Shown here one piece after another: positions 4,167-14,383 of a stretch of DNA of 64,000 nucleotides (within the stretch, counting starts at the first letter, position 1; each line of letters opens with the position of its first letter). The notes below the pieces were generated by a model. The model had not been told where the DNA came from, ran no database searches, and saw nothing but the letters and a program-made list of their open reading frames with translations. A program made the position numbers and the translations under genes. This DNA is from Armatimonadetes bacterium Uphvl-Ar2 (GTDB lineage: Bacteria; Armatimonadota; Fimbriimonadia; Fimbriimonadales; Fimbriimonadaceae), in assembly GCA_002162095.1 (NCBI GenBank), contig CP021424.1, positions 744,001 to 808,000 of the forward strand, given 5' to 3'.

Positions 4167-5666
4167 ATGCGCATGTGGATGCTGGATGTGGCGCGCGAGC
4201 AGTGCGTCACCCGCGAGCACCTGTTCCGATACGCCACCGAGACCCTAGACGCGGGCTACGACGCCCTGGGGCTGTACCTGGAACACCGTTTCGCCTACCC
4301 CAGCACCCCCTGGAGCCACGGCACCGGCGTCCTAACCCCGGAAACCATCCGGGCCGTGCGCAGCGAGTTCCCCAGCCTGCGCCTGGTGCCGTTTGTGAAC
4401 CTCCTCGGGCACGTGGAAGGGTTCCTCTACACCGAGCCTGGCCACCGCTGGGCCGAAGAAGAAATGAAGGGTCTGCAGGCGTGCCCGAGCAACCCGGACT
4501 TTGTGCGCTTTGCTGAGGGCATCCTCGATGACACCCTGGCCATCTTCGATGACGAATGGGTGCACATCGGTGGGGATGAAACCGCGCAACTGGGCAAATG
4601 CCCGACCTGCCAAGCCCGCGTGGACGCCCACCCCGGCGACGGCAAGGCCGCGCTCTACTCCGAACACTTCGGGCCGCTGGCTGCGCGCGTGGTGCAGGCC
4701 GGGCGGACCCCCGCCGTGTGGGGCGACATGTTCCTAGAGCACCCCGATGCCCTGGCCGCCATGCCCCGCGAGACGGTGCTGTTCGACTGGCAATACTTCA
4801 ACGGCGTGGCCGAAACGGCCGCCCGGCTGGGCGCGCACGGCCACCGGGTGGTGGGCTGCCCTGCACTGCACGTTTACAACGCGGCCTGGATGCACCTGGG
4901 CCCGAGCGACGAGAACATCCGCCAGGTGGCCCGCGATGTGCAAGCCCTGAACCTGGAAGGCGTGTGCCTGACCACCTGGGAGACCACGATGTTCAGCAGC
5001 TACGACACGCTTTTGCCGGCAGTGCGGGCGGCGCGGGCAATCATGGATGACCCCGAGGGGGCCCCGAGCTTGCTATCGGCTTACGATTCCGAGTGGGCGA
5101 ACCTGATGGGGGTGGCACTTAATGAACTCGGTGGGGTGTGGGGGCACAGCCGCCACCGCCACAAGTTGAAGTCGCGGATGTTCCTTTATGCCGACCCGTT
5201 CCTGGCCGGCCAGCACCACGCAGAGGAGATCTGCGGGCCGATGGGCGACCAAGCGCTGGCACTTGTTGAGCGCGCCTTTGCCGCCACCGACGATGAAGCC
5301 GAGAAGGGCGTGGCCCTGGCCTGCCGCAGCATGATCGAGTTTGTGCGGATGGCGCACGTGGCGCGGTTGCTCTACGCCGAAGGGCAAACCGAGCGGGCGG
5401 TGAGCGCTCTGGCCCCCACGCGGTATCTGTTCGAGACGCTGGAGCGGACGGCGAAGCGGACGCACGAGCGCATCGGCGGGAGCCTAGCCGACATCGAGCG
5501 GGCGCGGCGGGCCAAAGCGCACGTGGAGACGGTGATCCAGCGGATTCGGCAGTACGGGGATGGGTCGCTGGGCTACGTCCCGGCGTGGAACGTGCTGACC
5601 CACCCCAACTTTATGCCGCACGACCAGGCGAGCTGGTGGATTGTGAATTCTTGGGGTCGCCCGTGA
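4167..5666 (+). CDS. GH20-like beta-N-acetylhexosaminidase, cytoplasmic
   Basis: This 499-aa protein has a glycoside hydrolase family 20 TIM barrel. The key signature WVHIGGDET carries the substrate-assisted catalytic Asp-Glu pair (about residues 137-138) and is followed by a CPTC pair. It has no signal peptide and no GH20b N-terminal domain, so it is shorter at the N-terminus than the secreted GH20 at 39469 and probably acts on intracellular GlcNAc-containing fragments. The C-terminal third is helical and charged. Its last 127 or so codons are duplicated almost exactly at 7414-7796. It converges on the A-family gene at 5680 with a 13-nt gap. Confidence 0.82.
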   Translation: MRMWMLDVAREQCVTREHLFRYATETLDAGYDALGLYLEHRFAYPSTPWSHGTGVLTPETIRAVRSEFPSLRLVPFVNLLGHVEGFLYTEPGHRWAEEEMKGLQACPSNPDFVRFAEGILDDTLAIFDDEWVHIGGDETAQLGKCPTCQARVDAHPGDGKAALYSEHFGPLAARVVQAGRTPAVWGDMFLEHPDALAAMPRETVLFDWQYFNGVAETAARLGAHGHRVVGCPALHVYNAAWMHLGPSDENIRQVARDVQALNLEGVCLTTWETTMFSSYDTLLPAVRAARAIMDDPEGAPSLLSAYDSEWANLMGVALNELGGVWGHSRHRHKLKSRMFLYADPFLAGQHHAEEICGPMGDQALALVERAFAATDDEAEKGVALACRSMIEFVRMAHVARLLYAEGQTERAVSALAPTRYLFETLERTAKRTHERIGGSLADIERARRAKAHVETVIQRIRQYGDGSLGYVPAWNVLTHPNFMPHDQASWWIVNSWGRP

Positions 5667-5679
5667 GAGATCCTCGGGT

Positions 5680-6831
5680 TTAGCCAGGTCTAATGATTCG
5701 CATCAATTTGCCTGTATGCCCGGACCACATTTGCCCTCCTGGCATCGGAGTAACCCAATCCTCTCCACAGTCGGCGTACAGCATGAGAGTTCCCGTCAGG
5801 CTCTCTTCCACTGTAAGATCCCGCCAAACGGGGCCGAATCGCCTCGCAATGATGGGAACGTTCATAAGTTCTGCCCGCGTGAACTTCGCCCTGCCATCGT
5901 CGCCAATTCGCTCCGCAAGTTCTTGCGGGAAGCCCTCTTCCATCAAGCCCTTGATGACCAATTCCCGATAGGTTTTCGCGGCATCCTTGACAATCGTGCG
6001 GCGGTCCTGAACGAAGAACGGTATCGTATCGAGAACTTCGCGCATTCCTTCCAAGATTTCTGTAGTCGTGAACTTGCCTTTCAAGAAGACTTTGGGTTCT
6101 CCGAGCCGCGCATCGTAGCGGCACGTGTATCCCATTCCGGAGATAATGGCAATCACTTGCTGGACGGTCAACAACCGACCTTCGCCAAAATCCAGTGACT
6201 TTGGAAGCTCCTCAGTTGTGGTCTTCGGCGTCATCCACCCTGCTTGGCCAGATGGTCGTACACTTGACTGTCGATTATCCTTCTCAGGAATCGTAAAGAT
6301 TGTTCGATCTTCTCCTTGATCAAGAATGGTAATCCTAGCTTTGATAAAAAGTGGAACATCCTTTCGGTCTTGAACGGCCTGATTCACGCTTGGGTTGATC
6401 CGAGTAACAGACAAGATTAATTCGTGTTCCTCTGCCGAAAGCTGCTGAAAGCTTAGACCCTTAAACAACGCGTCCGACCGAGTCCGGACGAAATCCCACA
6501 GTCCGGCCCCTTCCCCGACTGCCATCAAAGAAGGTACGTCTTTACGCCGCGCCAGAACATCCGCGCGGCCCACCACCACATGGCGGCGCAACGACATCTG
6601 GGCGACTTCGGCCAGGCTTTCCGCCCGGATCGTCCCGTCCTCAGCCGTACTGACATCGGACGGATACCAGTTGTGAGCATCAAGAATCAATGGTCCTGGG
6701 TGGGCAACCCACAGCTCACGCAGTTCATCCTGATTAAGTGTGGAGCCAGGGTCAACTGGGGTGGCCGGCTGGGCCATGCTCTGACAACAAAGCATGGCCG
6801 CCAGAATCGGCATCAACGATGACGCTCGCAT
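5680..6831 (-). CDS. Family A secreted protein A1
   Basis: This 383-aa exported protein of unknown function is one of four paralogues here. The frame is open upstream to 6870, but ATG 6831 (MRASSLMPILAAMLCCQSMAQ) begins a clean signal peptide 11 nt after the B1 stop. The mature protein has three conserved blocks: HPGPLILDAHNW; VGRADVLARR; and LDFGEGRLL followed by RYDARLGEPKVFLKGKF. The third block resembles the small STN/N-domain found before secretin and TonB-receptor barrels; that assignment is inference. The mature part is about 95% identical to A2 at 7810-8988. GC is clearly lower than in the GH20 gene next to it. It is probably translated with B1 as an operon. Confidence 0.8.
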   Translation of the reverse strand: MRASSLMPILAAMLCCQSMAQPATPVDPGSTLNQDELRELWVAHPGPLILDAHNWYPSDVSTAEDGTIRAESLAEVAQMSLRRHVVVGRADVLARRKDVPSLMAVGEGAGLWDFVRTRSDALFKGLSFQQLSAEEHELILSVTRINPSVNQAVQDRKDVPLFIKARITILDQGEDRTIFTIPEKDNRQSSVRPSGQAGWMTPKTTTEELPKSLDFGEGRLLTVQQVIAIISGMGYTCRYDARLGEPKVFLKGKFTTTEILEGMREVLDTIPFFVQDRRTIVKDAAKTYRELVIKGLMEEGFPQELAERIGDDGRAKFTRAELMNVPIIARRFGPVWRDLTVEESLTGTLMLYADCGEDWVTPMPGGQMWSGHTGKLMRIIRPG

Positions 6832-6842
6832 GGCTTCGAAGC

Positions 6843-7313
6843 TTACTCTCCCGCGCCAGTGATACTGCATGGGTCTACTTCGATGTGGTGCGTTAGGTAG
6901 TTGTACGGCAATGTCACACTTTGCTCGTATGGTGTCGTTGGCAACAACGTCGGCATACTCGGATAAGGGTGATCGCTGTTTTGGAGAAAGAAGTACACGG
7001 TCCCATAGAAGCCGATCCCGTAATCGTACTCAAAGGTTTTCGGCTCAGTGTTAAAGTTCGTCGAGTACGTCATCGCCGGGAGCGGTGATTGGGTCGTGTA
7101 CTTACCTGGCGTTCCCGTTTGCCATCGTTGCCATGACCCAAAGATCGGAGTCACGGTATGGGAAACGGTACCCCGACCTGAGCAGCCGCTGAACGGCTTC
7201 GATCCGATGTAAATCTTCCAGGGAATCCTCTCGTCGTCAATTGGGTTGTACGTCTGAGCAAAGGCACAGCTCAGAATGGAAAGGGTCCCGATCGCTACTA
7301 ATGCAAGTCGCAT
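6843..7313 (-). CDS. Family B secreted protein B1
   Basis: This 156-aa protein has a clear signal peptide (MRLALVAIGTLSILSCAFAQ). The mature part is rich in Tyr, Pro, Thr and aromatic residues, with YNPIDDERIPWKIYIGSKPF near the start and GIGFYGTVYFFLQN in the second half. Two Cys residues in the first half-loop and tail (SGCSG and DPCSI) match those of paralogue B2 at 13862-14347, suggesting one disulfide. It is the first gene of a B1-A1 pair. The predicted -10 box lies 6 nt before the ATG with no ribosome site, so the mRNA may be leaderless. The function is unknown. Confidence 0.75.
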   Translation of the reverse strand: MRLALVAIGTLSILSCAFAQTYNPIDDERIPWKIYIGSKPFSGCSGRGTVSHTVTPIFGSWQRWQTGTPGKYTTQSPLPAMTYSTNFNTEPKTFEYDYGIGFYGTVYFFLQNSDHPYPSMPTLLPTTPYEQSVTLPYNYLTHHIEVDPCSITGAGE

Positions 7314-7319
7314 AAAGGA

Positions 7320-7349
7320 ACGCTACCCCCCCCACCTCAGGCGTGTCAA
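7320..7349 (-). promoter_or_regulatory. Promoter of B1-A1 with G8 spacer tract
   Basis: On the minus strand there is a perfect TTGACA (7344-7349), an 18-nt spacer ending in eight G (7326-7333), then TAGCGT (7320-7325) and 6 nt to the ATG at 7313. The same arrangement occurs upstream of B2. The G run lies directly against the -10 box, where a change in its length would change promoter spacing. Confidence 0.6.
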
Positions 7350-7413
7350 GGTCTGCGCGAAAATCTTAACAAAAAAGTTGCCCCGCGACCAATTTGAACC
7401 TAAATCTACTTTC

Positions 7414-7796
7414 CCACCGACGATGAAGCCGAGAAGGGCGTGGCCCTGGCCTGCCGAAGCATGGTCGAGTTTGTGCGGATGGCGCACTTGGCGCACCTGC
7501 TTTACGCCGAGGGGCAAACCGAGCGGGCGGTGAGCGCTCTGGCCCCCACGCGGTATCTGTTTGAGACGCTGGAGCGGACGGCGAAGCGGACGCACGAGCG
7601 CATCGGCGGGAGCCTAGCCGACATCGAGCGGGCGCGGCGGGCCAAAGCGCACGTGGAGACGGTGATCCAGCGGATTCGGCAGTACGGGGATGGGTCGCTG
7701 GGCTACGTCCCGGCGTGGAACGTGCTGACCCACCCCAACTTTATGCCGCACGACCAGGCGAGCTGGTGGATTGTCAACGCTTGGGGTCGCCCGTGA
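7414..7796 (+). pseudogene. Duplicated 3' fragment of the GH20 gene
   Basis: This fragment matches 5284-5666 almost base for base and keeps the reading frame to the TGA, but it lacks the catalytic barrel and any upstream start region. It encodes only the last 127 or so residues. Differences from copy 1 cluster in its first half (for example AHLAHLLYAEG against AHVARLLYAEG). It is joined directly to the remnant of the reductase gene tail. It is a by-product of the tandem duplication, not a functional enzyme; an in-frame GTG at 7440 could at most give a short product. Confidence 0.85.
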
Positions 7797-7809
7797 GACA
7801 ATCTCGGGT

Positions 7810-8988
7810 TTAGCCAGGTCTAATGATTCGCATCAATATGCCTGTATGCCCGGACCACATTTGCCCGCCTGGCATTGGGGTAACCCAATCCTCTCCGCAA
7901 TCGGCGTAAAGCATGAGAGTTCCCGTCAGGCTCTCTTCCACTGTAAGATCCTGCCAAACGGGGCCGAATCGCCTCGCGATAATGGGAACGTTCATAAGTT
8001 CTGCTCGCGTAAACTTCGCCCTGCCATCGTCGCCAATGCGCTCCGCAAGTTCTTGAGGGAAACCCTCTTCCATCAAGCCCTTGATGACCAATTCCCGATA
8101 GGTTTTCGTGGCATCCTTGACAATCGCACGGCGGTCCTGAACGAAGAACGGAATCGTATCAAGAACCTCGCGCATTCCCTCCAAGATTTCCGTAGTCGTG
8201 AACTTACCTTTCAAGAAAACTTTGGGTTCTCCGAGCCGCGCGTCGTAGCGGCACGTGTATCCCATTCCGGAGAGAATGGCTACAATCTGTTGAACGGACA
8301 ATAACCGACCTTCGCCGAAATCCAGTGACTTTGGAAGCTCCTCAGTAGTTGTCTTCGGCGTCATCCACTCTGCTTGTCCAGATGGTCGTATACTTGGCTG
8401 CCGATTATCCTTCTCAGGAATCGTAAAGAATGTCCGATCTTCTCCCTGATCAAGAATCGTAATTCTGGCCTTAATGAAGAGAGGAACATCCTTCCGGTCT
8501 TGAACGGCCTGATTCACACTAGCGTTGGTCCGTGTGACAGACAAGATTAACTCGTGCTCGTCCGCCGTAAGCTGCTGAAAGCTTAGACCCTTAAACAACG
8601 CGTCCGACCGAGTCCGGACGAAATCCCACAGTCCGGCCCCTTCCCCGACTGCCATCAAGGAAGGTACGTCCTTCCGTCTCGCCAAAACATCCGCGCGGCC
8701 CACCACCACATGGCGGCGCAGCGACATCTGGGCGACTTCCGCCAGGCTTTCCGCCCGGATCGTCCCGTCCTCCGCTGTGCTGACATCGGACGGATACCAG
8801 TTATGCGCATCGAGAATCAGTGGCCCTGGGTGGGCAACCCAAAGCTCGCGCAGTTCATCCTGATTGAGTGTGGATCCGGTATCAACAGGGGTGGACGACT
8901 GACTCTGCGATCTTGCTGATTGACCGAGGGAAACCCCGAAAAGGCAGCAACAAAATGCAATCAGGTAGGTGATACGTAAGATCGACAT
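7810..8988 (-). CDS. Family A secreted protein A2
   Basis: This 392-aa exported paralogue of A1 has about 17 substitutions in roughly 350 mature residues. ATG 8988 follows TTGGAGTCTGGAA, a good ribosome site, and gives the signal peptide MSILRITYLIAFCCCLFGVS. The frame stays open to 9030, but the longer start has no such site. All family blocks are present: HPGPLILDAHNW, VGRADVLARR, LDFGEGRLL, RYDARLGEPKVFLKG and FFVQDRR. Its signal peptide and upstream region are unrelated to those of A1, and it has no B partner, so it probably uses a different promoter. The function is unknown. Confidence 0.8.
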   Translation of the reverse strand: MSILRITYLIAFCCCLFGVSLGQSARSQSQSSTPVDTGSTLNQDELRELWVAHPGPLILDAHNWYPSDVSTAEDGTIRAESLAEVAQMSLRRHVVVGRADVLARRKDVPSLMAVGEGAGLWDFVRTRSDALFKGLSFQQLTADEHELILSVTRTNASVNQAVQDRKDVPLFIKARITILDQGEDRTFFTIPEKDNRQPSIRPSGQAEWMTPKTTTEELPKSLDFGEGRLLSVQQIVAILSGMGYTCRYDARLGEPKVFLKGKFTTTEILEGMREVLDTIPFFVQDRRAIVKDATKTYRELVIKGLMEEGFPQELAERIGDDGRAKFTRAELMNVPIIARRFGPVWQDLTVEESLTGTLMLYADCGEDWVTPMPGGQMWSGHTGILMRIIRPG

Positions 8989-9083
8989 TTCCAGACTCCA
9001 ACGAGTTGGCAGTCTAGCACTATCCAACACGCTCTCGGCAAGCTCAATTCAGACAAAAATCTTGGCCAGCGACCAATTTGAAC

Positions 9084-10091
9084 CTAAGTCGGCTTTCCCA
9101 CCGACGACAAATCCATGTCGCTGCTGTGCCCGGGGAACAGCTTCGCGTTCGGGTCCAGGTGCTGCTTGGCCACGCACACCGCGGTAGCCGCTTCGCCCAC
9201 CCCCGTCGCGATCAGTTTTATCTTCCCTTCAAACGTGCAGACATCCCCCACCGCAAACACCCCCGGTAGGTTGGTGCGATACAGATGATCCACCTCAATC
9301 TGGTTCTTGGTGATCGTCATCCCCCAATCCTTGAGCGGCCCCAGGGACGACTTAAACCCGATATTCACAATCACTTGATCGCACGCCACATCCTCAAAGC
9401 TCTTCTCGGTGGTGTGTTGCAGCGTCACCCCGGTCAGGGCTCCCGGCGCCCCGTGCAGCGCCGTCACTTGCTGCCACAGCAAGAACTCGATCCCCAAATT
9501 CTGCGCCGCCCGCACGCTCTCTTCGTGCGCGCGGAACTGGTCGCGCCGGTGCACCAGCCGCACCCGCTGCGCCACGGGGTGCAGGGCCAGCGCCCAGTCG
9601 AAGGCGCTATCCCCGCCCCCCACAATCAGCACATCCCGGTCGCGGAACGTCTCCAGGCTCCGCACGCCGTAGTACACGCCCTGGTTCTCCCAGTCCGCTT
9701 CACCTTCCAGGCCAATCCGAGTCGGAGAAAAAGCCCCCGCCCCCGCCGCCACGATGATGGTGCGGGTAGGCAGAGCCACGCCCGAGGTGGTGGTGATGAC
9801 ATACCCCTCCTCATCCGCCGCCAGGTGGTCGGCCGTCTCGCCCAGCACCAGGTCGGGGTGGAACTGCGTCCCCTGCTGAATCAAATCGCGCGCCAAATCC
9901 TTGGCCAGCACGGCCGGGAACCCCGGCATATCGTAAACGTACTTCTCCGGGTAGAGCGCGGTGAGCTGCCCGCCCAGTTCGGGCAAGCTATCCAGAATCC
10001 GCACCGACATCCCGCGCAGCCCGGCGTAGAAGGCGGCAAACAGGCCGGTGGGGCCGCCCCCAATGATCGTGACGTCCACTCGATCGTGCAT
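9084..10091 (-). CDS. Ferredoxin-NADP reductase, type 2 (TrxB-like flavoprotein)
   Basis: This 335-aa flavoprotein transfers electrons between NADPH and ferredoxin or flavodoxin. It has two nucleotide-binding Rossmann motifs: IIGGGPTGLFAA near the N-terminus for FAD and VLIVGGGDSAFDWA mid-protein for NADPH. The C-terminal FAD segment reads GVFAVGDVCTFEGKIKLIATGVGEA. It lacks the CxxC redox centre of thioredoxin reductase, which places it in the YumC/type 2 FNR group. The frame opens at a TTG (10100), but ATG 10091 gives the canonical N-terminus. Its last codons lie inside the word shared with the duplication remnant at 7386-7413. Confidence 0.9.
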   Translation of the reverse strand: MHDRVDVTIIGGGPTGLFAAFYAGLRGMSVRILDSLPELGGQLTALYPEKYVYDMPGFPAVLAKDLARDLIQQGTQFHPDLVLGETADHLAADEEGYVITTTSGVALPTRTIIVAAGAGAFSPTRIGLEGEADWENQGVYYGVRSLETFRDRDVLIVGGGDSAFDWALALHPVAQRVRLVHRRDQFRAHEESVRAAQNLGIEFLLWQQVTALHGAPGALTGVTLQHTTEKSFEDVACDQVIVNIGFKSSLGPLKDWGMTITKNQIEVDHLYRTNLPGVFAVGDVCTFEGKIKLIATGVGEAATAVCVAKQHLDPNAKLFPGHSSDMDLSSVGKPT

Positions 10092-10163
10092 CCCTCTCAA
10101 TTTACGCCCCCGCGCGGTTCCCCCGTCCGACCCAGGGGGCCATCGGCCTTGCCCGCAGGCAAC

Positions 10164-10196
10164 AAAAAGCCCCCGCTCCAGCGTTGGAGCGAGGGC
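10164..10196 (-). terminator. Rho-independent terminator after the PrsA-like gene
   Basis: On the minus strand a GC-rich hairpin (CGCTCCA paired with TGGAGCG, extended by CCC/GGG) is followed by TTTTTG. It lies 32 bases past the stop of the lipoprotein gene at 10228. Confidence 0.8.
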
Positions 10197-10227
10197 GAGG
10201 AGAACCAGGGGAGAGCCAATCGGCGGG

Positions 10228-11259
10228 TTAATTGCCGGCGGTAGTGCCGGTCTTGGCTTCTTGTTCCTTCAGCGCTTCGCCGAAGGTTTCCATGAAGCGT
10301 TCCCACATGCCCTTCAGGTAGCTCTTGTCCACGGTGACCGTGCTGTCCTTCAGGCGCTTGGCGATGCGGTCGTTGAGGTCCACCGCCTGGGCGCCCTGAG
10401 CCTTGGCGAGGTCGCGGCGGATGCGCTCGCGGCGCTCCTTGGTGATCTCGATCTTGCTCTCTTGGGTGCGGCGTTCCACCAGGTACTTCACCTGTTCGTT
10501 GTCGGCCAGCTTGATCCAGGCGGTGGCGCGGCCCGGAGCCGTGGTGGTCAGGCCCGTATAGAGCGTGCGCACCACCGGGGCGGCCACCTGCGCCTTCATG
10601 GCGGTCAGGTTCAGTTCGCTGCGGCTGGGCACGTTCTGGGGGTTCACTTCGCGGGCCACGTCGGTGAAGTTGCGGCCTTGGCTCAGAAGGTTGTCGGCGC
10701 GCTGCTTGCTGCGCTCATCACGCACCACAATCTGCACCACTTCGGCCATCGCAGGCTTCAGGAACGCGTTGGGGCTGTCCTTAATGAACTTGTCCACTTG
10801 CTGGTCGCTGATCTTGATGCCTTCGGTCAGCAGGTGCTCTTGGGCCAGGTCCACACGGATGGACTGGCGGATCTGCTCCATGGTCAGGCCACGGGCCTGC
10901 AGGTTCTTTACGTAGCCCGGGTTGATCTTTTCGAGCGTGGCGATTTCGGCCTGCACGGCGGTGTCGTCCAGCTTGAAGCCCTTGTCTCGCGCCATCTGAA
11001 TGATGAGCTTTTGCGTGACGAGGTCTTGCAAGGCCTGGAAGGCGATGGTGTTGGCCACAGGGACCTCAAGCTGTCGGTTGTCCACCACCACGCGGACGGT
11101 GGGCTTCGTCTCGATGTGCTTGATGAACTCTTCCATGGTGATGGGGTCACCGTTCACGGTCGCAAGGGTTTCTTCTCCCCGGTTGCAACCGGTGAGGGCC
11201 AGGGCCGCCAGAGCGGCGGCGGTCCAAAGTCCATACTTTCCAAACATAATGCTATTCAT
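10228..11259 (-). CDS. PrsA/SurA-like peptidyl-prolyl isomerase lipoprotein
   Basis: This 343-aa protein has a lipoprotein signal ending in the lipobox LALTGC, so it should be anchored to a membrane facing the periplasm. The frame extends upstream to 11373, but ATG 11259 (MNSIMFGKYGLW) starts the signal and is preceded by GGGAG. After the lipobox, TLATVNGDPITMEEF is the typical SurA/PrsA N-terminal entry, followed by a helical chaperone region. A degenerate parvulin domain (VVQIVVRDERSKQRADNLL, then GRNFTDVAREVNPQNVP) and a charged helical tail follow. It probably assists folding of exported proteins. The isomerase motif is weak, so a pure chaperone is possible. Confidence 0.82.
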   Translation of the reverse strand: MNSIMFGKYGLWTAAALAALALTGCNRGEETLATVNGDPITMEEFIKHIETKPTVRVVVDNRQLEVPVANTIAFQALQDLVTQKLIIQMARDKGFKLDDTAVQAEIATLEKINPGYVKNLQARGLTMEQIRQSIRVDLAQEHLLTEGIKISDQQVDKFIKDSPNAFLKPAMAEVVQIVVRDERSKQRADNLLSQGRNFTDVAREVNPQNVPSRSELNLTAMKAQVAAPVVRTLYTGLTTTAPGRATAWIKLADNEQVKYLVERRTQESKIEITKERRERIRRDLAKAQGAQAVDLNDRIAKRLKDSTVTVDKSYLKGMWERFMETFGEALKEQEAKTGTTAGN

Positions 11260-11399
11260 GGCTCCCGCAAGGGGGTGAGCGGAGATCGCTCCACTCGTCA
11301 CAACACATTTGGCGCAAAGTTCGTGCCAGATGGGCCGGACCCTGGTAAGGATACCGGGATTCGGCGGGCCCATTGGGCGTACGGGAGGCTAGGGCGAAG

Positions 11400-12602
11400 C
11401 TACGGCGCCGGAAGGCCGTGACCTAGCGCACCTTGGCTCACAGTTATCCCATCTGCCCGCAAAGAACTCCAAATGAAGCCTGGATCACACCAGAATCGAA
11501 GCCCAACTTCCATCCGAATCACTTGGTCAGCCTCCCTTTCCTCGCTGCTCATTCTCGCCTTAAGCGGCTCAACCTCGCGAAACTCTTTCTTCGTAGCCAC
11601 GATTTCGTAAACCATCGTGGCCGTCGGCAATTCGAGCCGCTCCGCCAGAGATGGGGGGAATCCCCTTTTGATCAATGCCGCGACCAACATTTCCCGGTAT
11701 CTGGCCGGCATATGGTTCCTTTGGGCGCGCAGGTCTTGGGCAGACATGGGAATGGTTTGCAACACCTCCCTCAATGACTCCAAAATTTCGCCGACTTCAA
11801 AAACACCCTTCACGAAGATCGGAGAGCCCTCGATTCGCGCATCGTAGCGAACGGAGTATCCGAGCTCAGCCACACGTCCGATCAGTTCACGAGTCGTCAA
11901 CATCTCGCCGCCGCCAAAATCGAGGGTAAGAGCCTCCGGCTGAGGAACGGCACGCGGTGCTGCCCATGCAGGATTACCCGTGGGCGCGTTTACGACTGCT
12001 TCATGAATCCGAAATCCTCCGACCGAGCGTAACTGACCATTCTCCATCCAAGACATGCTCGCACCGAGCACCATGGGGGCGGTTGAATTGTTCCGAAGTG
12101 CGTGAAGAAAGGCGGGCGATGAGAATCCCACATCGGTCCACAATTCACGCTCGTCGGCCGTGAACTGATTGAGGGGCAGCCCTTCGAGCAAAGCGTCAAA
12201 GCGCTGACTGGCAAAAGCGTAAAGGGAGTGGGGTCGGCCCATGCGCAAGGAGGGGCTGACTTCGAGCCGCCGGGCGAACACATCGGCTCGCCCCACCTGG
12301 ATGTATCGCCGCTTCCCGGCCTGGGCTATCACTTTGAGGTCCGGCTCCCGAATCACTCGGTCACCATCCATCACGGTTTCGTTAGGGAGCCAGTCATTGG
12401 CGTCCACCATCAGCGGACCGGGGTGCAGGGACCACTCTTGTTTGACCCGGGCGATAACATCGCGGGCAAACTCACCTTCCTCCTGAGCGCTTGACTGGGC
12501 CATGCCGAGAGACGGAACGAGCCCGGTAAGAACAATGGTCGCCAAAAACGCGATCCGCTGGTAAGCGTGGTGTCGAGTCATCACCCCTTCCCCAAAAGGC
12601 AT
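11400..12602 (-). CDS. Family A secreted protein A3
   Basis: This exported protein of about 400 aa is a diverged paralogue of A1 and A2. It keeps HPGPLMVDANDW, VGRADVFARR, LDFGGGEML and RYDARIEGSPIFVKGVF, followed by EILESLREVLQTIP. ATG 12602 follows TTTGGAGTCAGA, very like the site before A2; the internal ATG 12581 (MTRHHAYQRIAFLATIVL) would give a shorter, more typical signal peptide and also has a purine-rich stretch upstream. It lies 83 nt downstream of A4 on the same strand, probably in one transcript B2-A4-A3. GC is lower than in the genes flanking the region. The function is unknown. Confidence 0.75.
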   Translation of the reverse strand: MPFGEGVMTRHHAYQRIAFLATIVLTGLVPSLGMAQSSAQEEGEFARDVIARVKQEWSLHPGPLMVDANDWLPNETVMDGDRVIREPDLKVIAQAGKRRYIQVGRADVFARRLEVSPSLRMGRPHSLYAFASQRFDALLEGLPLNQFTADERELWTDVGFSSPAFLHALRNNSTAPMVLGASMSWMENGQLRSVGGFRIHEAVVNAPTGNPAWAAPRAVPQPEALTLDFGGGEMLTTRELIGRVAELGYSVRYDARIEGSPIFVKGVFEVGEILESLREVLQTIPMSAQDLRAQRNHMPARYREMLVAALIKRGFPPSLAERLELPTATMVYEIVATKKEFREVEPLKARMSSEEREADQVIRMEVGLRFWCDPGFIWSSLRADGITVSQGALGHGLPAP

Positions 12603-12685
12603 TCTGACTCCAAAGACGACGAGAAGCGAACCGAAGTTACAGGTGGCTTCGATCTACCTACGACTCCGGCGGCTCCAAGACAGCT

Positions 12686-13858
12686 CTATCCAGGAGTAAC
12701 GATGAGCTGGAAGACGCCCCTAACTCCCTGTTGAATGCCCGTGTATGGCGACGTTGAAACCCAGGTCTCCTCAGTATCCATGTGAAGCATGATTTTGACC
12801 GACACATTCAAACGCTCGTTGCGATTACCCCACCTTGCTTCATAGCCTTGCTTCATTCGAGGAAAGCTCATGAGTTCCTGCATCGTAGCCTTCAAGGTCC
12901 CATCATTCTCAATCCGCTCACACAGGGCGGGCGGGAAGCCGTGTTCCTCCAGCAGACTCTTTGCCATGTCGCGGTAGGTGGCCTGAGCAGTCCCTGCCAC
13001 ATTTCTACGATCCTGAACAAACAAGGGGATCGTTTGGGCAACCTCAGCAAGGGACTGCAATAGCTCTTGCACCTCAAATGTGCCTTTCAAAAAGAGCTTT
13101 GATTCAGCGAGGCGGGCATCGTAACGCACGACAAAACCTCTTTCATTGAGCATCGAAGCCAAGAGGCGAATGGAGATGAGCCGTCCATCACCAAAATCAA
13201 TCGCTTCGCTGCTTTGGACACCAAGCGGCCTTTCACTGGCCCACGTCGGACGGCCAGCTGGCATTTCCGAGTTCTTGCGAATCGGGCTTGAAGTACTGAA
13301 TCGCAGCGCTTCTTCGCCGAGAGAACTTGTCCAAACCAGATAGGGGAATAGCTTGAATTCGCCTTCTCCCCGATTCAGGATCCTACGCTGGGCGGAAGGC
13401 ACTTGAGCCGTCGTGCTCGCTAGCATTTCAACTTCTTCCGCACTCAACTCCTTTAGCGGCATTCCCTTCTTGAGCAGAGGGGCACGTGCAACGACAAAAT
13501 CCCATATCGAACCTATGCGACCGGCTTGGCGCCACGCACTTGCGTCAATGAGTCGGGCAAACACGTCCGCCCGCCCAATGCGCTTCCAGCGTCGGTTCTC
13601 AACTTGCGCGATTTTCGCCAGGTCCGGCTCGCATATACGCTGCTCCGAATCACTCATCGATTCCGGGCCGACCCAGTTCAATGCATCAAGCATTAAAGGC
13701 CCGGGGTGGTACTCCCACTGCTTTTTGAGTACAGCAATCGGGATGTATCCCAGGTCAGATTGAGATGGGGAACCGCCGGGTTCCTGTAATGTTCCCCTGG
13801 CAACCCCTGCAGCACCAAATGCAAGGAGTAGCGGAACAATAACTGACTTCCTTGTCAC
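12686..13858 (-). CDS. Family A secreted protein A4
   Basis: This 390-aa exported paralogue starts at a GTG (13858) preceded by GAGGAG at ideal spacing; that ribosome site sits in the last codons of B2, only 3 nt from the B2 stop, so the two are translationally coupled. The signal peptide is MTRKSVIVPLLLAFGAAGVA. The family blocks are HPGPLMLDALNW, IGRADVFARL, IDFGDGRLIS and RYDARLAESKLFLKGTF, then QTIPLFVQDRR. It is clearly diverged from A1/A2 outside these blocks. The function is unknown. Confidence 0.78.
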   Translation of the reverse strand: MTRKSVIVPLLLAFGAAGVARGTLQEPGGSPSQSDLGYIPIAVLKKQWEYHPGPLMLDALNWVGPESMSDSEQRICEPDLAKIAQVENRRWKRIGRADVFARLIDASAWRQAGRIGSIWDFVVARAPLLKKGMPLKELSAEEVEMLASTTAQVPSAQRRILNRGEGEFKLFPYLVWTSSLGEEALRFSTSSPIRKNSEMPAGRPTWASERPLGVQSSEAIDFGDGRLISIRLLASMLNERGFVVRYDARLAESKLFLKGTFEVQELLQSLAEVAQTIPLFVQDRRNVAGTAQATYRDMAKSLLEEHGFPPALCERIENDGTLKATMQELMSFPRMKQGYEARWGNRNERLNVSVKIMLHMDTEETWVSTSPYTGIQQGVRGVFQLIVTPG

Positions 13859-13861
13859 GTC

Positions 13862-14347
13862 TTACTCCTCAGCCGGTGGCGTGCCACCACAGCGGTTGAA
13901 AGTCATTTCGAACTCGGGCGTATTGTAGTCCATTGCCAGACTGCTCTGAGGCGTGCCCCCGACAAGAGGAGGCACAGATGTTGGGCCATAGACGTTGTTC
14001 TTCAGGTAGACGTACATGGTCCCGTAAAAGCCAACTCCTGTTGGTTTCCCCCAATTACGGATGACGAAGTCCTGTTGGAAGTTGTAAAAGATGTAAGGCC
14101 AGGGCCAAGTTGTGGGCATTGTACCGGGAGTATTGTTTTCCCACCTCGTCCACGATTTGTAGTGGATCGCTGATAGCACCGTCACCTGCGGACCCTGACA
14201 TCCGGTGTAGGGAGTAGATCCGATGTACATATACCAGGGCACGATCTGGTCATCTAATGGATGCCATTGAGCCGAAGCCACGGCTGGCACCGATGCAAGG
14301 GCAATTGCAGCAATAGTTGTACTTAGATTCCAAGCCTTACTGAGCAT
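13862..14347 (-). CDS. Family B secreted protein B2
   Basis: This 161-aa exported paralogue of B1 has a signal peptide ending near VPAVASAQ. It shares HPLDDQIVPWYMYIGSTPY, the central aromatic region, GVGFYGTMYVYLKN and the two Cys positions (TGCQG and NRCGG) with B1. It is the first gene of B2-A4-A3. The intergenic stretch from the sigma-factor stop (14401) to this start is only 53 nt and contains the conserved G8 promoter. No ribosome site precedes the ATG. The function is unknown; pairing with an A gene twice in the window suggests the two products work together. Confidence 0.75.
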   Translation of the reverse strand: MLSKAWNLSTTIAAIALASVPAVASAQWHPLDDQIVPWYMYIGSTPYTGCQGPQVTVLSAIHYKSWTRWENNTPGTMPTTWPWPYIFYNFQQDFVIRNWGKPTGVGFYGTMYVYLKNNVYGPTSVPPLVGGTPQSSLAMDYNTPEFEMTFNRCGGTPPAEE

Positions 14348-14353
14348 ATGACG

Positions 14354-14383
14354 ATGCTACCCCCCCCGGCAAGGTTGTGTCAA
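14354..14383 (-). promoter_or_regulatory. Promoter of B2-A4-A3 with G8 spacer tract
   Basis: On the minus strand a perfect TTGACA (14378-14383) is followed by an 18-nt spacer ending in eight G (14360-14367), then TAGCAT (14354-14359) and 6 nt to the ATG at 14347. The layout is identical to the B1 promoter. Upstream, both also share CAAAAAAGTT on the plus strand. Confidence 0.6.

Follow-up and report, generated by a model that had tools for sequence, protein, structure and literature searches.

The window, a stretch of 64,000 nucleotides, belongs to the complete, single-contig genome (2,633,441 bp; G000) of a member of the Fimbriimonadaceae, phylum Armatimonadota. Two short genes on its minus strand, B1 (positions 6843 to 7313; 156 aa; without a Pfam family) and B2 (13862 to 14347; 161 aa), are paralogues of 34% identity whose products are predicted to be secreted, with clear predicted signal sequences ending AFA-Q in B1 and ASA-Q in B2. 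Both are followed on the same strand by genes for A proteins, which are about 400 aa long and are also predicted to be secreted. A1 (5680 to 6870; about 396 aa) lies directly after B1, its listed start overlapping the B1 end, and is probably cotranscribed with it. A4 (12686 to 13858; 390 aa) lies 3 nt downstream of B2 and is likewise probably cotranscribed, while A3 (11400 to 12602; 400 aa), 83 nt downstream of A4, may belong to the B2 operon as its third gene. The A3 orthologue in the sister species G001 (94% identity) is without B2 and A4 in front. A tandem segmental duplication of 93% identity over 1.49 kb (5284 to 6771 and 7414 to 8901) took in the end of a GH20 gene and A1/A2, and a GH20 remnant of 118 aa (7440 to 7796) sits between B1 and A2.

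A Pfam search with the B and A proteins and ten other downstream proteins gave no usable match. No relative of the B proteins was detected among 61 relatives or by a peptide-pattern search of genome contigs, and B was absent from both sister species, G001 and G002. The predicted structure of B2 had a mean pLDDT of 42, too low for fold assignment; that of A1 had a mean pLDDT of 64, with a best PDB match no better than E 0.29. At the matching locus of G001 (L053, G001:C53), the flanking genes for a sigma factor and a glycoside hydrolase were 100% and 98% identical, respectively, B1, B2 and A4 were absent, and the A protein at the matching position had 34 to 48% identity to its counterparts. On this sequence comparison, the interval from 5680 to 14347 is a small hypervariable island of predicted secreted proteins. 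The B and A proteins are patchily distributed, fast-evolving and predicted to be secreted; they probably act at the cell surface or outside the cell, in contact with phages, predators, competitors or attachment partners.

The promoter regions of B1 and B2 share an unusual arrangement, read here on the minus strand. Upstream of B1 the sequence is TTGACA-CGCCTGAGGT-GGGGGGGG-TAGCGT-TCCTTT-ATG (ATG, 7313 to 7311), in which a −35 box (TTGACA, 7344 to 7349) is separated by an 18-nt spacer, CGCCTGAGGT plus GGGGGGGG, from a −10 box (TAGCGT, 7320 to 7325); the spacer ends in a tract of eight G's (7326 to 7333), and the ATG lies 6 nt beyond the −10 box. Upstream of B2 the sequence is TTGACA-CAACCTTGCC-GGGGGGGG-TAGCAT-CGTCAT-ATG (ATG, 14347 to 14345), with the −35 box at 14378 to 14383, an 18-nt spacer (CAACCTTGCC plus GGGGGGGG) with a G8 tract at 14360 to 14367, the −10 box TAGCAT at 14354 to 14359 and the same 6 nt to the start codon. 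These elements were assigned from the sequence and, for the B1 tract, also from its recurrence across the family. Direct reading thus confirmed the layout given in the preliminary description, from TTGACA through the 18-nt spacer ending in G8 and TAGCGT or TAGCAT to the ATG 6 nt on, and all of its coordinates were correct. The boxes make up pairs of the sigma-70 type; the −35 boxes are perfect, the −10 boxes are imperfect, and both spacers are within 1 to 2 nt of the 17-nt optimum. The B1 transcript is probably leaderless. The TAGCGT hexamer was found in the same position in G008 (locus L156) and G099 (loci L169 and L186). Between B1 and B2, the tract and the spacing have been kept, and the remaining spacer and the proteins have diverged.

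A G8 tract alone proves nothing, because the window had no surplus of such tracts (3 observed versus 7.8 expected from shuffles, at a GC content of 62.6%). The full promoter pattern was present at two places in 2.63 Mb, B1 and B2, and its reversed control at none, which indicates that the position of the G8 tracts is not due to chance. It had been claimed that two independent copies made chance unlikely; the rejection of chance held, but the copies are not independent, since B1 and B2 are paralogues. No TTGAC..GGGGTANNNT promoter with a G4 to G7 tract was detected in the whole genome, and the pattern with at least four G's matched B1 and B2 only. The idea that promoters of this genome generally have a G-rich spacer was rejected, as TTGAC-N12-16-GGGGTANNNT was found only at B1 and B2. 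The proposal that leaderless promoters of the form TTGACA-N-TANNNT-N-ATG are common in the genome was also rejected (6 matches versus 1 in the control).

Only 11 G or C tracts of at least 8 nt were present in the whole genome, 8 upstream of genes and 3 within ORFs. Tracts of this length are depleted genome-wide, because the shuffled expectation for the window, when extrapolated, gives hundreds. The upstream location of 8 of the 11 had a binomial p of about 1e-6, given a genome that is 10% non-coding, with the reservation that several of the genes are paralogous and the independent events fewer. All eight upstream tracts precede predicted secreted proteins with a signal-like N terminus. The six outside the window comprise a C8 tract at 248069, upstream of the gene for a 119-aa predicted secreted protein; a G11 tract at 1731198 and a G8 tract at 1738813, each upstream of a gene for one of two paralogous proteins of about 440 aa; and G9, G10 and G8 tracts at 2302664, 2304368 and 2306111, each upstream of one of three paralogues in tandem whose products have about 185 aa.

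A palindrome, TATAGGTNTNNAGNCCTATA, was common to these six tracts. Six palindromes with no more than two mismatches were found in the whole genome, and all six lie 5 to 7 nt from a G or C tract of 8 to 11 nt. The sites of TATAGGTNNNNNNACCTATA are at 248044, 1731171, 1738786, 2302638, 2304342 and 2306085 (G000:C1; loci L049, L050 and L051), all upstream of predicted secreted proteins. As read from these positions, the palindrome plus tract is a second promoter class of six genes, in which the tract is placed between a putative operator and the core promoter, and the palindrome is probably an activator site. A copy of TATAGGTNNNNNNACCTATA with zero mismatches was observed in a sister species (locus L135). 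At a locus in G002 (L125; G002:C131, locus position 2621), a C13 tract was observed on the coding strand 39 nt before the start codon of a gene that is homologous (49%) to the poly-G genes at 1731218 and 1738839, with C replacing G.

The distribution of the first promoter type was examined by scanning 85 genomes of the family for TTGACA followed, after 0 to 12 nt, by at least eight G's, with the reversed pattern as a control. After overlaps were collapsed and the loci were read, about 36 distinct sites were counted in 20 of the 85 genomes compared to 1 for the control (p about 6e-10). The poly-C version of the scan gave a weaker signal, with about 9 sites versus 3 in the control. Where an ORF started within 70 nt, 29 of 30 sites were followed by a hydrophobic, signal peptide-like N terminus, as called by a simple hydrophobicity score, compared to 44 of 117 (38%) other ORFs in the same loci (Fisher p = 9e-10). 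A poly-G spacer promoter was also found close to three distant A-family loci (G004, G015 and G029). Most of the relatives are metagenome assemblies, in which a homopolymer length is a consensus; the pattern recurred in independent assemblies, among which G000 and G008 (Fimbriimonadaceae bacterium ACE_ARM1, CP075364.1) are single-contig genomes. One promoter of CP075364.1, TTGACA-AAGCAGTC-G9-TAGCGT-N7-ATG, is near to the B1 promoter and precedes an unrelated predicted secreted protein, and another has a 20-nt spacer with a G10 tract.

Several side observations were made at these loci. Duplicated predicted secreted proteins of about 374 to 416 aa with poly-G promoters were present in G028 (L167 and L183) and G099 (L169, L186 and L187). 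Those of G099 contain the stretches HVATHG and LDACHAG, which recall caspase-like peptidases; a Pfam search with the L169 protein gave no match. Two G17 tracts in G005 (L142 and L145) lie a few tens of nucleotides from contig ends; they are likely to be assembly breaks or artefacts and call for caution with tract counts in draft genomes.

The geometry of the family sites was variable. Tracts ranged from 8 to 15 G's and lay 0 to 11 nt after TTGACA and 0 to 5 nt before the −10 box. A −10 box was located at 24 sites, 15 to 23 nt from the −35 box with a mode of 17 to 18 nt, and a TANNNT box was absent from the tested stretch at 12 of the 36. The number of G's was hardly offset by the remaining spacer length (r = −0.25). 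Spacers of 15 to 23 nt with so little compensation would be expected of switching states and not of a fixed optimum, and the comparison of spacing in relatives that had been proposed as a check came out in favor of switching. The distance from the −10 box to the start codon was 6 to 7 nt at 14 of 23 sites, which suggests leaderless transcripts.

Differences in tract length were sought between near-identical promoters, for which the evidence comes from sister promoters in the phylum and from the second class, the close relatives being without B1 and B2. Two promoters in one genome of the phylum, identical at 119 of 120 flanking bases, had G11 and G12 tracts. The triplicated promoter of G000 carries G9, G10 and G8 tracts and its sister-species orthologue a G10 tract, with the 50 nt downstream being 90 to 100% identical.

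These data bear on the main alternative, that the poly-G tract is a selected but non-switching element, which would either stiffen the spacer or bind a regulator that recognizes G tracts. The tracts of B1 and B2 are both exactly G8 and in the same place, which counts against phase variation and for a fixed element, as do the marked bias towards G, rather than C, in coding-strand tracts and the equal lengths of some paralogous pairs (G8 in both L169 and L186 of G099 and in both L167 and L183 of G028). A fixed element is, however, hard to reconcile with variable tract lengths and positions, with spacers of 20 to 23 nt, which are poor for sigma-70, with near-identical promoters that differ by one or two G's or with the G002 homologue, in which C13 near the start replaces G. 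We regard this alternative as unlikely. Much less probable still is that the hexamers are not a working promoter, with transcripts starting at another site and the tract acting otherwise, for example within a longer transcript: the imperfect −10 boxes would allow for this, but the perfect TTGACA, the correct spacing and the short, leaderless-type distance to the start codon at the majority of the measured family sites argue against it. In a GC-rich genome, G-rich spacers might arise by chance or through assembly artefacts, as the unremarkable number of G8 tracts in the window, the many metagenome assemblies and the two contig-end tracts of G005 might suggest, but this explanation can be dismissed given the family-wide reversed-pattern control, the association with predicted secreted proteins and the recurrence in independent assemblies, both single-contig genomes among them.

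Phase variation, as put forward in the preliminary description, is supported by the family-wide recurrence, the signal-like products, the range of spacer lengths and the tract-length differences, and we consider it likely that the promoters of B1 and B2 are phase-variable (contingency loci). The features of the spacer type that were found are a tract of about eight or more nucleotides between the hexamers, spacing near 17 nt, a predicted surface or secreted product and, for sister promoters in the phylum and for the second class, copies that differ in length. Under phase variation, slipped-strand mispairing at replication would add or remove G's, at a rate that should be much above that of point mutation, and each slip would alter the distance between the −35 and −10 boxes. 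Eight G's is near the lower end of the tract lengths at which slippage is rapid. With G7 or G8 (a 17- or 18-nt spacer) the promoter would be active, and with G9 or G10 (19 or 20 nt) it would be weak or off. Cells that express B1-A1 or B2-A4(-A3) and cells that do not would then coexist in one population, with the two units switching independently. In the six genes of the second class, slippage would instead shift the spacing between activator and polymerase, as in Bordetella fim.

Beyond the family, the TTGACA plus poly-G pattern was detected in 59 of 291 genomes of the phylum. Among GTDB representatives the exact pattern (TTGACA-poly-G-TANNNT-ATG) was present in at least 116 stretches, 80 of which were read (loci L196 to L275) and came from many phyla; the matches listed included Planctomycetota, Omnitrophota, Saccharibacteria, Spirochaetota and Clostridia. 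A G9 tract was found in 44 and a G8 tract in 7 of these 80 among the matches listed; by chance, G8 is expected to be far commoner than G9. Type IV pilin-like N termini were encoded downstream at at least five stretches (L198, L214, L219, L235 and L263). The GTDB scan hints that many phyla have promoters with poly-G spacers, nine G's being the favored length. On balance, we lean towards a dispersed contingency-locus system in the Fimbriimonadaceae, and perhaps in many uncultured environmental bacteria, in which two kinds of poly-G-switched leaderless promoters, those with spacer tracts and those with a palindrome plus tract, would randomize a large and fast-turning-over repertoire of secreted orphans.

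Simple-sequence-repeat phase variation has been studied chiefly in pathogens, where it is attributed to immune evasion. This type of mechanism is already known; the lineage, the gene set, the family-wide spread, the link with secreted orphans and the palindrome-linked class appear to be unreported. A literature search, with subscription papers outside its scope, returned nothing for Armatimonadetes with phase variation or for Fimbriimonas with poly-G. If the interpretation is correct, family-wide poly-G promoters in free-living, mostly uncultured bacteria would make this a more general strategy, for which the likely drivers would be phages, predators or surface life. Furthermore, the promoter tract would serve as a sequence-only marker for exposed, fast-evolving proteins among thousands of unannotated orphans.

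Three known systems invite comparison. In the Bordetella promoters fim2, fim3 and fimX, a C-stretch near the conserved fim box alters transcription (PMC1891110). The second class resembles these in having an operator-like palindrome at a near-fixed distance from the tract, the mark of the fim type, and in the placement of the tract between the −10 box and a conserved upstream box, the palindrome here and the fim box in Bordetella; it differs in that the tracts here are mostly G and not C. To our knowledge the palindrome TATAGGTNNNNNNACCTATA is unrelated to the fim box, at which BvgA is the known activator. The porA gene of Neisseria meningitidis has a poly-G tract in the −35/−10 spacer, as described in PMC7864442, and the earlier comparison with porA was apt: both cases have a homopolymeric G tract in a sigma-70 spacer of a gene for a surface protein (predicted to be secreted here). 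However, porA is a single gene of a pathogen, whereas the tracts described here form a family-wide set in environmental Armatimonadota, are probably associated with leaderless transcripts and often touch the −10 box.

The poly-G promoters of Treponema pallidum (tp0126, tprE/G/J and tprL) have tracts of about 7 to 11 G's, and those of tprL vary from 7 to 11 within isolates and lie a few nucleotides from the transcript start (PMC7864442). In a reporter assay of a T. pallidum poly-G promoter, 8 G's outperformed 10 (PMC7864442). Treponema is a host-restricted pathogen, and the proteins are unrelated; furthermore, length variation and effects on expression were measured there, whereas the present comparison is of sequences alone. 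The likeness lies in a poly-G tract in the promoter of a gene for an outer-surface protein, B1 and B2 being predicted to be secreted. The closest match, closer than porA, is tp0126, in which the poly-G tract lies between the −35 and −10 boxes and transcription is best with a 17-nt spacer (PMC7864442).
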